The position numbers and the translations under genes were made by a program. Positions 5,748 through 50,460 of a stretch of DNA of 57,683 nt are shown piece by piece. The stretch covers positions 1 through 57,683 of the forward strand of contig JACPAF010000003.1 in the NCBI GenBank assembly GCA_016180965.1, read 5' to 3'. The notes beneath the pieces were generated by a model. The model had not been told where the DNA came from. It worked only from the letters and a program-made list of their open reading frames with translations, and searched no databases. This stretch comes from Candidatus Aenigmatarchaeota archaeon (lineage in GTDB: Archaea; Aenigmatarchaeota; Aenigmatarchaeia; JACPZZ01). Within the stretch, counting starts at the first letter, position 1. Each line of letters starts with the position of its first letter.

Positions 5748-5870
5748 TGCTCCTGCTGGGATTTGAACCCAGGTCTTCGGCGTGAAAGGCCAATGTCCTA
5801 TCGGTTGGTGAAAATGCGCGTGTTTTTGGTACGCGCCTGTCGACCGCTGACCGGACTGGACGACAGGAGC
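5748..5870 (-). tRNA. tRNA-Glu(TTC) with a D-loop intron
   Basis: Acceptor strands GCTCCTG/CAGGAGC pair over seven bases, with A73 and no encoded CCA. The anticodon loop is CTTTCAC (TTC) on stem TTGGC/GCCGA, and the T-arm is CTGGG-TTCAAAT-CCCAG. The D-stem GTCC/GGAC is split by about 48 extra bases (5800-5847). Removing them leaves a textbook D-loop, AGUCCGGUCAA. The 5' half also encodes the last two dozen codons of the LAGLIDADG gene upstream, in the same direction. Confidence 0.9.
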
Positions 5871-7247: not shown

Positions 7248-7296
7248 GTTGTAGCTAGAAACATGTGCTATTTGGCATGCACATGTTTCATTCTAC
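7248..7296. repeat. Family 1 palindrome, 3' side of tRNA-Val
   Basis: GTTGTAGCTAGAAACATGTGC and GCACATGTTTC form an 11-bp stem (7258-7268 with 7279-7289) with the standard left flank GTTGTAGCTA. The right flank ATTCTAC is altered but still closes GTTGTAG partly. It begins on the base after the stop codon of the membrane hydrolase and ends four bases from the tRNA-Val 3' end, so it lies in the tRNA trailer. Confidence 0.8.
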
Positions 7297-7300
7297 TATT

Positions 7301-7374: not shown

Positions 7375-7450
7375 GCAAACTGAAGCGGATTCCACGGCAA
7401 ACTGACGCATACATGGTATGCGTCTAGCTGCAGAATCTGCTTCTAGCTGC
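7375..7450. repeat. Nested pair of family 1 palindromes, 5' side of tRNA-Val
   Basis: The outer element has flanks GCAAACTG and CTAGCTGC and stem GAAGCGGATTC/GAATCTGCTTC (7382-7392 with 7433-7443, one G-U pair). In its loop sits a complete second element, 7397-7431, with identical flanks GCAAACTG and CTAGCTGC and stem ACGCATAC/GTATGCGT. The outer copy starts three bases from the tRNA-Val 5' end. This is direct evidence of one element inserted in another. Confidence 0.85.
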
Positions 7451-7501
7451 CCCGCTAGAACAGAAATACAACTTGCGACTTTAAATCATTTCCTTTAACT
7501 A

Positions 7502-7533
7502 AAAGCATACCGTATATCGTATCGGTATGCTTT
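7502..7533. repeat. Family 1 stem-loop with degenerate flanks
   Basis: AAAGCATACCG and CGGTATGCTTT form an 11-bp stem around a 10-base loop, TATATCGTAT. Stem and loop closely match copies at 16126-16157 and 47998-48029, but the flanks have changed (ACTA at the left, GGAGTT at the right). It lies about 45 bases upstream of the TATA box of the mevalonate operon. Confidence 0.75.
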
Positions 7534-7579
7534 GGAGTTAATAAGCCGGTTGGACAAAAAGTGTCTAGTCATACGTCAG

Positions 7580-15847: not shown

Positions 15848-15896
15848 GTTGTAGCTAGAAACAGACGCTATTGTGTATGCGTCTGTTTCAGTTTAC
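15848..15896. repeat. Family 1 palindrome, 5' side of tRNA-Gly
   Basis: A full-length copy: left flank GTTGTAGCTA, stem GAAACAGACGC/GCGTCTGTTTC (15858-15868 with 15879-15889) and right flank AGTTTAC. GT...AC at the ends, AGCT with AGTT inside them and the main stem make a three-part hairpin with single-base bulges. It sits directly against the tRNA-Gly 5' end. Confidence 0.88.
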
Positions 15897-15998
15897 GATG
15901 TGTCTATTTCAGTTTACTACTATGCATCCGTTTCAGCTCACTCTTCCTATTAATAGAAAACCTATAGTTTTCTATTTATGAAAACTGACGTTTTCATA
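15897..15998. repeat. Family 1 fragments and two tandem family 2 hairpins
   Basis: 15901-15940 holds two single arms, each ending in the family 1 tail (TTTCAGTTTA, TTTCAGCTCA). They are followed by two tight hairpins in tandem: ATAGAAAAC/GTTTTCTAT (15953-15975) and TATGAAAAC/GTTTTCATA (15977-15998). The tandem pair resembles those at 21542-21589 and 22245-22289. No gene or open frame is seen in this stretch between tRNA-Gly and tRNA-Ser. Confidence 0.65.
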
Positions 15999-16020
15999 AT
16001 TTACATTGTTATTATTTTAA

Positions 16021-16060
16021 GAAGCATACCGTATGCTTTTTTGGTATGCTTCAGTTTGTA
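16021..16060. repeat. Family 1 palindrome, 3' side of tRNA-Ser(GCT)
   Basis: GAAGCATACC and GGTATGCTTC form a 10-bp stem around GTATGCTTTTTT, with right flank AGTTTGTA. The loop contains a partial copy of the right arm (GTATGCTT), perhaps a slippage product. It ends four bases from the tRNA-Ser 3' end. Confidence 0.8.
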
Positions 16061-16063
16061 TAG

Positions 16064-16241
16064 CGTCGGGGGCGGGATTTGAACCCGCGCTGGCTACGTC
16101 GACTGAAACAGACGCTTTACAGCCAGAAACATACCGATGCAGTATACGGTATGTTTCAGTTTCCGATGCGTCTGTTTCTAACTCCTTTAACGCCAACAGG
16201 TTTAGCAAACCTGCGCCCTAACCTGGCTAGGCGACCCCGAC
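16064..16241 (-). tRNA. tRNA-Ser(GCT) with a variable-arm intron
   Basis: The acceptor is GTCGGGG/CCCCGAC with G73, as expected for Ser. The anticodon stem is CAGGT/ACCTG with loop TTGCTAA (GCT), and the T-arm GCGGG-TTCAAAT-CCCGC. The long variable arm is split by 92 bases (16095-16186). Splicing at AA|A and UA|G leaves UUGGC-GUUAA-GCCAG, a perfect class II variable arm. The gene is 178 nt in total. Confidence 0.92.
16095..16186 (-). other. Variable-arm intron of tRNA-Ser(GCT) with nested palindromes
   Basis: A regular bulge-helix-bulge can be drawn: UUGG/CCAG outside, CGUU/GACG as the 4-bp centre, 3-nt bulges AAA and UAG. Inside is an outer stem GAAACAGACGC/GCGTCTGTTTC, and in its loop a second hairpin GAAACATACCG/CGGTATGTTTC (16126-16136 with 16147-16157) with family 1 flanks AAACTG and TGGCTG in the opposite orientation. 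The intron is thus two family 1 elements, one inside the other. Confidence 0.82.
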
Positions 16242-16248
16242 TTACTAC

Positions 16249-16315
16249 TAGAAGCATATCGTATACTGTATCGATATGCTTCAGTTTATGACGGTATGCT
16301 TCAGTTTCCGATGCA
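16249..16315. repeat. Family 1 palindrome plus a partial copy, 5' side of tRNA-Ser(GCT)
   Basis: The complete copy has stem GAAGCATATCG/CGATATGCTTC (16251-16261 with 16272-16282), loop TATACTGTAT and right flank AGTTTATG. A partial copy follows, CGGTATGCTTCAGTTTCC at 16292-16309. The same right-arm fragment is found at 25020 and, with one change, at 16147. Confidence 0.82.
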
Positions 16316-40189: not shown

Positions 40190-40230
40190 GTTGTAAACTG
40201 ACTCATACAAAGTATGAGTCTAGCTACAAC
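40190..40230. repeat. Free-standing family 1 palindrome upstream of rpl7ae
   Basis: The clearest intact copy: GTTGTA and TACAAC at the ends, AACTG and CTAGC inside them, and a stem ACTCATAC/GTATGAGT with a 3-base loop. On the opposite strand GUUGU/ACAAC, AGCU/AGUU and the main stem stack with single-base bulges on alternate sides, recalling a bulge-helix-bulge. It lies in the presumed 5' leader of rpl7ae, just before its ribosome site. Confidence 0.88.
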
Positions 40231-47916: not shown

Positions 47917-47950
47917 AACCTTTTTGATAAAAAGGTTTATCAAAAAAAAT
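47916..47950 (+). repeat. Family 3 hairpin after cbf5
   Basis: AAACCTTTTT/AAAAAGGTTT (47916-47925 with 47929-47938) is followed by ATCAAAAAAAAT. Read on the minus strand the same A-run is a T-run just after the tRNA-Ser gene and may end its transcript. The stem overlaps the cbf5 stop codon. Confidence 0.7.
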
Positions 47951-47987
47951 CAGGCGCCGAGGAAGGGATTTGAACCCTTACGGAGCA

Positions 47988-48035
47988 AACGTCGACTGAA
48001 GCATACCGTATACTGCATCGGTATGCTTCTAGCTG
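47988..48035 (-). other. Variable-arm intron of tRNA-Ser(UCN), a family 1 palindrome
   Basis: On the tRNA strand AGCTAGAAGCATACCG and CGGTATGCTTCAGTC form the family 1 hairpin with loop ATGCAGTATA. The junction resembles that of tRNA-Ser(GCT): CGU/ACG, bulges AAC and UUU. Removal leaves GGGGC-GUAAAU-GCUCC. The flank CAGTCGACGT is shared with the other Ser intron. Confidence 0.75.
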
Positions 48036-48057
48036 TTTACGCCCCACCGGATTTCTA

Positions 48058-48167
48058 AGGCTCCAAACTTAAAGGATTCCTCATTTCGCCGCCATGATCA
48101 GAATCAAGCCTTGATGTCATAGCCTCTCAAGTATCGCCTATGCGCCAATCATCTCTGGCATCAGCAT
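48058..48167 (-). other. Anticodon-loop intron of tRNA-Ser(UCN), about 110 nt
   Basis: Its ends cannot be fixed to the base. A 7-bp helix forms between exon AUGCGCC and intron GGCGCAU, which may compete with the tRNA fold before splicing. Two CTGA boxes and one ATGAGGA occur but not in a convincing box C/D order. No family 1 stem is present. Confidence 0.45.
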
Positions 48168-48194
48168 ATCCGGCGCATTTAACCTGGTTCTGCC

Positions 48195-48275
48195 ATCGAT
48201 CAGACCGAAGCACATTTCCGGCTGAAGCATGTCCTATGGCACGCTTCGGTTTACGTTGTGCTTCCGATGGCCCGC
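48195..48275 (-). other. Intron between acceptor stem and D-arm of tRNA-Ser(UCN)
   Basis: Cutting GU|G and AU|G joins GCCGAGGU to GGCAGAACC, the normal U8-G9-D-arm order. CGA/UCG can form the central helix. Inside is ACCGAAGC paired with GCTTCGGT and a fragment ATGCTTCAGC of the family 1 arm. A second copy of GCCGAGG stands three bases upstream of the tRNA 5' end. Confidence 0.6.
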
Positions 48276-48327
48276 ACCTCGGCTTTCCTCGGCATATTTT
48301 AATTGCGACGGAAGGTTAATAAACTTC

Positions 48328-49750: not shown

Positions 49751-50407
49751 TCAATTGATCGAGAATTTGTATTTTGGCGCAAAATTGCTGACCCAATGTT
49801 TCCTTTCCAACGAATAATATTCGTTTTTTGGTTCCACCTCACCGCTGATCAGTTTACAGGCAGTTTCTATGAGATTGGGCATGTACATTATCCATTCTTC
49901 CAGTTTCTGGACAGTTGCCACGAATTCATTTTTTACGTCTTCGCTGCCCGGGTATTTTATAATTATCTTGGCGTCTAAAATATCGCAGTGTTTGAATACC
50001 GGATGATTTTTTAGGCAAAACGCATATGTGGCGAGCTGAATTTTATAATCGTCAAAAAATTTTGGGTTACCGGTACTTGGCATTTTGTTGTGAGAAAACG
50101 AGATTTGTTTATTTCCATACTCTCCTGTACCCACGAATTCCAGCCTATTCAGTTTGCCTACAAAGTTGTTGTTCATGTCGCCTAGCCTAATATTTAATAA
50201 GGAAAATTTGTGATTTTCTTCCATCCAACCGTTTATTTTGTTTATATCCAGATCATAACCCGTTTGGTCGGGTTGTTGCCTCGAAAAGTTGTTTGTTGAG
50301 ACGTCTTTGAATTCCGATAGGAATGATGCTTGAGATACGCCCAATCTGGCGAATGTTGAAATATTCATCGGTTGTTGGAATTTCCTTGGGAAATAATCTT
50401 CTAACAT
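49751..50407 (-). CDS. Hypothetical protein, possible PD-(D/E)XK nuclease fold
   Basis: This 218-residue protein of no certain family has a middle part (VGKLNRLEFVGTGEYGNKQISFSH, then YKIQLATYAFCLKNHPVF) that follows the RecB/Cas4 nuclease outline of substrate strand, metal-binding strand with a lysine and a Q-x3-Y helix. The expected acidic pair before the lysine is not clear, so it may be inactive or unrelated. Four scattered cysteines or fewer; no iron-sulfur pattern. Divergent from the small membrane genes. Confidence 0.45.
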   Translation of the reverse strand: MLEDYFPRKFQQPMNISTFARLGVSQASFLSEFKDVSTNNFSRQQPDQTGYDLDINKINGWMEENHKFSLLNIRLGDMNNNFVGKLNRLEFVGTGEYGNKQISFSHNKMPSTGNPKFFDDYKIQLATYAFCLKNHPVFKHCDILDAKIIIKYPGSEDVKNEFVATVQKLEEWIMYMPNLIETACKLISGEVEPKNEYYSLERKHWVSNFAPKYKFSIN

Positions 50408-50460
50408 TATTAAAAATTGTCCGCCGATAGTTAAAAATACTTTAATGTGTTAAATGTGAT

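Follow-up and report, generated by a model that had tools for sequence, protein, structure and literature searches.

A tRNA-Ser(UGA) gene with four probable BHB introns in a Candidatus Aenigmatarchaeota archaeon

Results

Organization of the tRNA-Ser gene

The window analyzed in our study was a stretch of 57,683 nucleotides of contig JACPAF010000003.1 from a Candidatus Aenigmatarchaeota archaeon. Its minus strand was found to contain, at 47955-48283, all arms of a class II tRNA-Ser in order together with G73, exactly where the first-pass annotation had placed them. That annotation had counted at least four pieces and three removals; the gene was indeed in several pieces, but four removals were needed, leaving five exons. 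Exon 1 (48276-48283, GCCGAGGU) contained tRNA positions 1-8 and was identical in G001, G003, and G004, followed by the 81-nt intron 1 at 8/9 (48195-48275), a hairpin with a second hairpin in its loop. Exon 2 (48170-48194, 25 nt) contained positions 9-30, with the D-arm and the 5' side of the anticodon stem, followed by the 37-nt intron 2 at 30/31 (48133-48169). Exon 3 (48126-48132) contained the 7 nt ACUUGAG of positions 31-37, with the anticodon UGA, and was followed by the 73-nt intron 3 at the canonical site 37/38 (48053-48125), which is box C/D-like. Exon 4 (48037-48052, 16 nt, AUCCGGUGGGGCGUAA) contained positions 38-43 and the 5' side of the variable arm, followed by the 50-nt intron 4 in the variable arm (47987-48036), a copy of the palindromic element R1. 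Exon 5 (47955-47986, 32 nt) contained the 3' side of the variable arm, the T-arm, the 3' acceptor strand, and G73; CCA was not encoded. All parts were collinear within 329 nt, which is not the arrangement of a split or permuted tRNA.

The 5' leader GCCGAGGAAA (48284-48293, minus strand) duplicated the acceptor 5' strand 10 nt ahead of the strand used in the tRNA and was identical in all four species in which the gene was found. A TATA-like TTTATTAA (48316-48323, minus strand), recognized by eye and near-identical in the four species, was centered about 26 nt upstream of the leader; from its position, transcription likely starts at the leader copy, with the box as the putative promoter. An oligo-T run, TTTTTTTT (47943-47950, minus strand), lay 3' of the gene and was T-rich in all four species; it is the likely terminator. 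In the unspliced precursor, the leader was predicted by ViennaRNA to pair with the 3' acceptor strand (P=1.0), and it may be a placeholder on this strand that would free exon 1 for the 8/9 BHB. Removing or changing the leader left the predicted 8/9 BHB unaffected, and in free-energy folding this BHB was absent from the dominant structure with the leader present or absent. The first GCCGAGG copy was rejected by eye as the acceptor strand: U8 follows the second copy only, and in G001 and G004 this U8 would be lost.

BHB search and splicing model

Every possible intron was scored for a strict BHB, with the cut two bases into a 3-nt bulge, a 4-bp central helix, and outer and inner helices, and a beam search was made over successive removals of canonical BHB introns. 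The scoring was blind to the anticodon. The beam search yielded no tRNA-shaped product before the fourth removal; the two then obtained had the anticodon UGA, differed in the variable arm only, and had summed BHB scores of 106.5 and 102.5, respectively. When the introns were dinucleotide-shuffled 5,000 times, the mean score was 33.4 and the maximum was 74, so that none reached 106.5. The spliced product of the best solution was 88 nt long (GCCGAGGUGGCAGAACCAGGUUAAAUGCGCCGGACUUGAGAUCCGGUGGGGCGUAAGCUCCGUAAGGGUUCAAAUCCCUUCCUCGGCG) and was identified by ARAGORN as tRNA-Ser(UGA), with all arms paired, G73, and a long variable arm. The intact gene was seen neither by ARAGORN nor by Rfam at the gathering score, and the sole scoring segment of the unspliced gene was an 18-nt T-arm stub (E 2.6).

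The 3-nt bulges and the 4-bp helix were found at all four introns. The central helices of introns 1 and 3 each had a single mismatch (U.U in the latter), and the BHB of the variable arm contained an A.C mismatch in the intron-side helix. In the unspliced precursor, the two best BHB candidates were those at 30/31 (score 27) and then at 8/9 (score 26). The 30/31 intron contained the central helix CGCC:GGCG and the inner helix UAUGC:GCAUA. The score of intron 1 was reached by 0.06% of shuffles, and that of intron 4 was 23. The BHB of intron 3 scored 18.5 in the unspliced precursor and rose to 30.5, the best value, once intron 2 was removed, since exons 2 and 3 jointly supply its outer helix, CCGGA:UCCGG.

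In the proposed mechanism, the archaeal tRNA splicing endonuclease, encoded by a single gene, would cut the precursor at each BHB, and the usual ligase would join the exons. Removal of the 30/31 intron should precede that of the 37/38 intron: the BHB of the latter is completed by an anticodon-stem helix to which exons 2 and 3 both contribute.

Anticodon and serine tRNA genes

The first-pass annotation had raised the possibility of a further intron near the anticodon, and 48169-48053 was found to be two introns flanking a 7-nt exon. Its puzzle over the anticodon is thereby resolved: the reassembled loop was CUUGAGA. Simple joining had given it AGA, to which none of the BHB solutions led, and a two-base micro-exon at about 48146 had given it GGA; this micro-exon was not needed, the middle exon being ACUUGAG with the anticodon UGA. 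In the outgroup genes, the corresponding stretch was uninterrupted, CCAGACUUGAG in G017, CCGGACUUGAG in G011 and G023, and CUGGUCUUGAA in G046, so that without intron 2 the upstream anticodon stem was joined directly to the exon 3 sequence.

Ser(GGA), Ser(CGA), and Ser(GCU) were found as separate genes in the same bin, all of them reassembled with BHB introns, and Ser(UGA) is therefore the isoacceptor that the bin otherwise lacks. The genome sequence examined consisted of stretches around tRNAs and repeats. No second Ser(UGA) gene was found in the bin; because the bin is 81% complete, a further one could sit outside it. The locus was to have been regarded as a pseudogene had normal GGA, UGA, and CGA genes existed elsewhere; GGA and CGA genes do, but in the sequence examined a UGA gene was found at this locus only. 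The codon UCA, which is read by tRNA-Ser(UGA), was common, accounting for 184 of the 14,206 codons in the ORFs of the window. The decoding was thus ordinary, with GGA, CGA, and GCU supplied by their own genes and UGA reading UCA, and not the unusual strategy that had been considered.

The tRNA-Ser(CGA) gene (L023, G000:C2 ~50268-50431) contained two introns, of 15 nt at 30/31 and of 73 nt in the variable arm. The tRNA-Ser(GCU) gene (window 16063-16242, minus strand) contained a 92-nt variable-arm BHB intron with a nested palindromic element, and was also seen neither by ARAGORN nor by Rfam at the gathering score. A probable tRNA-Glu(UUC) with a D-loop intron was found at about 5748-5865 of the window on the minus strand, from a weak Rfam match of 28.1 bits and an anticodon read by eye. 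Another tRNA gene (L026, G000:C2 ~60480-60684, minus strand) appeared to be interrupted in the T-loop and by further introns near the anticodon.

Conservation of the gene and gain of introns

In G001 and G004, of the same genus, the gene contained the same four introns in the same places and adjoined cbf5. In G003, it contained these four together with a D-loop intron and a T-loop intron, that is, six introns and seven exons. The locus was absent from the G002 bin, which is fragmented. The closest named records of the Cbf5 protein were JACQNZ010000004.1 (83% identity) and JACPZZ010000019.1 (82% identity), both from Candidatus Aenigmatarchaeota. The mature tRNAs of the four species were identical except in the variable arm, and the identity of the 8/9 intron among the species was 25-64%. 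By this comparison, the spliced product is under strong selection.

The intron between the acceptor stem and the D-arm, which the first-pass annotation had already recognized, had a BHB whose central helix, CGAG:NUCG, was kept in the four species. Its intron helix showed paired changes between G000 (CGGGCC:GGUCUG) and G001 (CGGACA:UGUCUG), and the inner helix of intron 3 contained a compensatory change from GGCU:AGCC to AGCU:AGCU in G004. Four outgroup Ser(UGA) genes from other families (G011, G017, G023, and G046) contained the 37/38 intron only. For this reason, the 8/9, 30/31, and variable-arm introns are interpreted as gains within the genus and the 37/38 intron as old.

Variable-arm intron and the element R1

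The R1 model, which is palindromic and 52 nt long, matched 47988-48039 with 65.3 bits (E 4e-15), the place of intron 4. About 49 distinct copies of R1 were found in G000, and R1 was present in all five genomes of the genus and absent from the other class members searched (55 genomes). Of the copies, 21 lay in a tRNA or RNase P RNA gene or at most 60 bp from one, a zone covering 1.2% of the genome; the binomial P of about 8e-28 treats coding DNA as open to R1, from which the elements may be kept out, and the extents of several interrupted tRNA genes in this count were set by eye. For most of these 21 copies, the mature tRNA end lay 0-3 nt from the 52-nt model. R1 copies were also found between genes and within the loops of other copies. 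The stem covariation in A1 is partly built in, because the copies were selected by pairing.

In the window, further R1 copies were found at 12-62, 7248-7299, 7394-7434, 7492-7544, 15848-15899, 16014-16062, 16116-16167, 16241-16292, and 40190-40230, mostly within or flush with tRNA genes. One copy of the variable-arm intron was intergenic (L050, G000:C2:234078-234140), with the flanks GGGCGCAA...GCGCCC and no tRNA around it. The RNase P RNA gene (L102, G000:C2:311566-311971), whose match in G000 was below the gathering score, seemingly had two R1 copies, an internal one (311646-311696) and one spanning its 5' end.

Three genes, Ser(UGA), Ser(CGA), and Ser(GCU), contained a variable-arm intron, which the outgroup Ser(UGA) genes lacked. 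This pattern, with like introns in more than one tRNA gene and none in the outgroup, is that of tRNA intron transposition of the Thermoproteales type. Hairpins of the R1 kind, with differing stems, preceded many orthologous tRNAs by 8-12 nt in several species (e.g., L006, L109, L128, L151, and L160), and tRNA-Phe in all five genomes (G000-G004). Because they recur upstream of orthologous tRNAs in several species, a fixed role of these hairpins is suggested. R1 could be a mobile element or a processing or promoter signal. It is possible, though doubtful, that a mobile palindromic element, of which the tRNA introns of the genus are copies, also inserts between genes, in its own loops, in the RNase P RNA gene, and flush with mature tRNA ends.

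Canonical intron as a candidate guide RNA

Unlike the other introns, intron 3 was conserved at 93-96% identity between G000, G001, and G003; it contained an extra hairpin in G004. In the outgroups, its layout was that of a box C/D sRNA, with box C AUGAGGA or AUGUGGA, box D' CUGA, box C' GUGAUGG, GUGAUGU, or AUGAUGA, and a CCGA-like box D. In the genus, D' CUGA and C' AUGAGGA were clear and C was weak; no clear 3' D box was found in intron 3. Rfam gave nothing convincing for the introns, the candidate box C/D intron 3 included.

The stretch before the D' box CUGA, GAUGGCUUGAC, was a perfect complement of 16S h44 CACCGCCC[GUCAAGCCAUC] in G011 and G017. The pairing with this site was 11 bp in G011 and G017, 9 bp in G046, and 8 contiguous bp in the genus, where one more pair followed beyond a mismatch. 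The match was reached by 1/4000 and 4/4000 shuffles for G011 and G017, respectively, and by 355/4000 for the species of the window, so that the outgroup matches are convincing as sequence matches and that of the window's species is unconvincing alone. In all four members of the genus, the guide contained U instead of C, and the 16S of G003 contained A instead of the first target G, a compensatory difference. By the five-nucleotide rule, the predicted methylation target would be an A of 16S h44, which we take to be E. coli position 1408.

A second guide in G011, G017, and G023 was complementary, by eye, to the 16S 3' end UCACCUCCU. The second guide of the genus, UCCUUUAAGUUU, matched 16S at about 907-918 with one G.U pair (by eye) and was not followed by a D box; in G003, introns interrupt the 16S at this site, and the match is a lead only. 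A 12-nt exact match of the second guide in L105 was rejected: it fell outside the rRNA proper, in an inserted part of the 16S gene where an ORF-like motif is present. The 16S rRNA gene of G003 (L105, 760-4093) was 3.3 kb long and contained several insertions, with introns near E. coli 906-918 and, by eye, an ORF with an IDGDG (LAGLIDADG-like) motif.

Across the class, intron 3 thus probably has a second role, in guiding 16S rRNA methylation in the manner of a box C/D RNA. For this genus the chances of such a guide are about even, this lower estimate following from the poor boxes C and D.

Splicing endonuclease

One endonuclease gene per genome was found in all five genomes of the genus. The enzyme was of the short alpha type and closest over its length to that of M. 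jannaschii (1A79). A short lysine-rich, KRGPK-like insertion between the catalytic Tyr and His was present in 16/16 class members aligned and absent in M. jannaschii. It was also found in class members whose Ser(UGA) contained the canonical intron alone. The loop was therefore discarded as a genus-specific key to many introns, since it occurs throughout the class. Previous studies reported that loops near the active site broaden endonuclease specificity in Crenarchaea and ARMAN (PMC12397907), and by analogy the KRGPK-like insertion could be a third case.

Discussion

In our study, the locus is in all likelihood a functional tRNA-Ser(UGA) gene whose four BHB introns interrupt positions 8/9, 30/31, and 37/38 and the loop of the variable arm. 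One of the inserts is a copy of a dispersed repeat, and repeats often kill genes, so that a decayed tRNA-Ser pseudogene broken by repeat insertions has to be considered. A BHB bounds every insert, however, the Ser(GCU) and Ser(CGA) genes of the same bin carry a like variable-arm intron, and the bin offered no other Ser(UGA); a pseudogene is very unlikely because the exons, outside the variable arm, were kept in four species while the 8/9 intron diverged. Another anticodon is scarcely credible. The sequence UUAGAAA precedes the 3' anticodon stem, where a simple join spells AGA, and a GG near 48146 would serve as the 2-nt exon of GGA; no BHB path to either was found, the outgroup genes spell CUUGA(G/A) without interruption, and Ser(GGA) has its own gene.

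The same tRNA with slightly shifted cuts, e.g., with the variable arm UGGACGUUUGCUCC or with CUUGA^...^AAUCCGG (A37 instead of G37), is unlikely but deserves more weight. Direct repeats at the junctions leave some cuts ambiguous, and the second solution of the search differed from the best in the variable arm only, whereas the chosen cuts fit the strict BHB geometry and lead to mature arms of one kind in all four species. The functional gene with its four introns is the reading followed below.

Previous studies reported a maximum of three introns in one archaeal tRNA gene (PMC8450103, PMC4390854, PMC4033280). The multi-intron genes of Thermoproteales, such as tRNA-Pro(UGG) and tRNA-Glu(UUC) of Pyrobaculum, likewise contain several canonical and noncanonical BHB introns, and related introns are common to different tRNAs there (PMC4390854, PMC4090602, PMC4033280); intron transposition between tRNAs is known in this order (Fujishima et al. 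2010, as cited in PMC4090602). The Thermoproteales genes contain up to three introns (PMC8450103, PMC4390854, PMC4033280), whereas four were found here and six in G003. The present lineage also differs in belonging to DPANN, in its alpha-type endonuclease, and in an intron family with dozens of copies outside tRNA genes. In the Asgard Atabeyarchaeia and Freyarchaeia, more than half of the tRNA genes were reported in 2024 to contain multiple, often noncanonical introns (PMC11291895). These genes are multiply interrupted, as here, and a four-intron tRNA gene may exist in Asgard archaea. In ARMAN-1/2, too, the genomes are tiny, tRNA introns are found at noncanonical sites, and a loop with lysine lies close to the active site of the endonuclease (PMC12397907, PMC4033280), which is of the epsilon-2 type and not the short alpha type found here. 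The euryarchaeal tRNA-Trp intron also contains a C/D guide; it is described, as cited in PMC7994747, as methylating its own tRNA in cis, whereas the guide in intron 3 is complementary to 16S h44.

The number of introns in one archaeal tRNA gene would thus rise from three, the maximum in the literature consulted, to four, and to six in a sister species. Such numbers would occur together with a simple alpha-type endonuclease, whereas introns of this kind are usually associated with a heteromeric or epsilon-2 enzyme. The conserved canonical intron has a probable second function, suggested by its complementarity, in guiding modification of the ribosomal decoding site. If the mobile reading of R1 is true, the tRNA introns of this genus would derive from an element living outside tRNAs, and the splicing enzyme would neutralize its insertions into essential tRNAs. 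With five genomes of the genus that contain the gains and outgroups that lack them, the spread of archaeal tRNA introns becomes directly testable.
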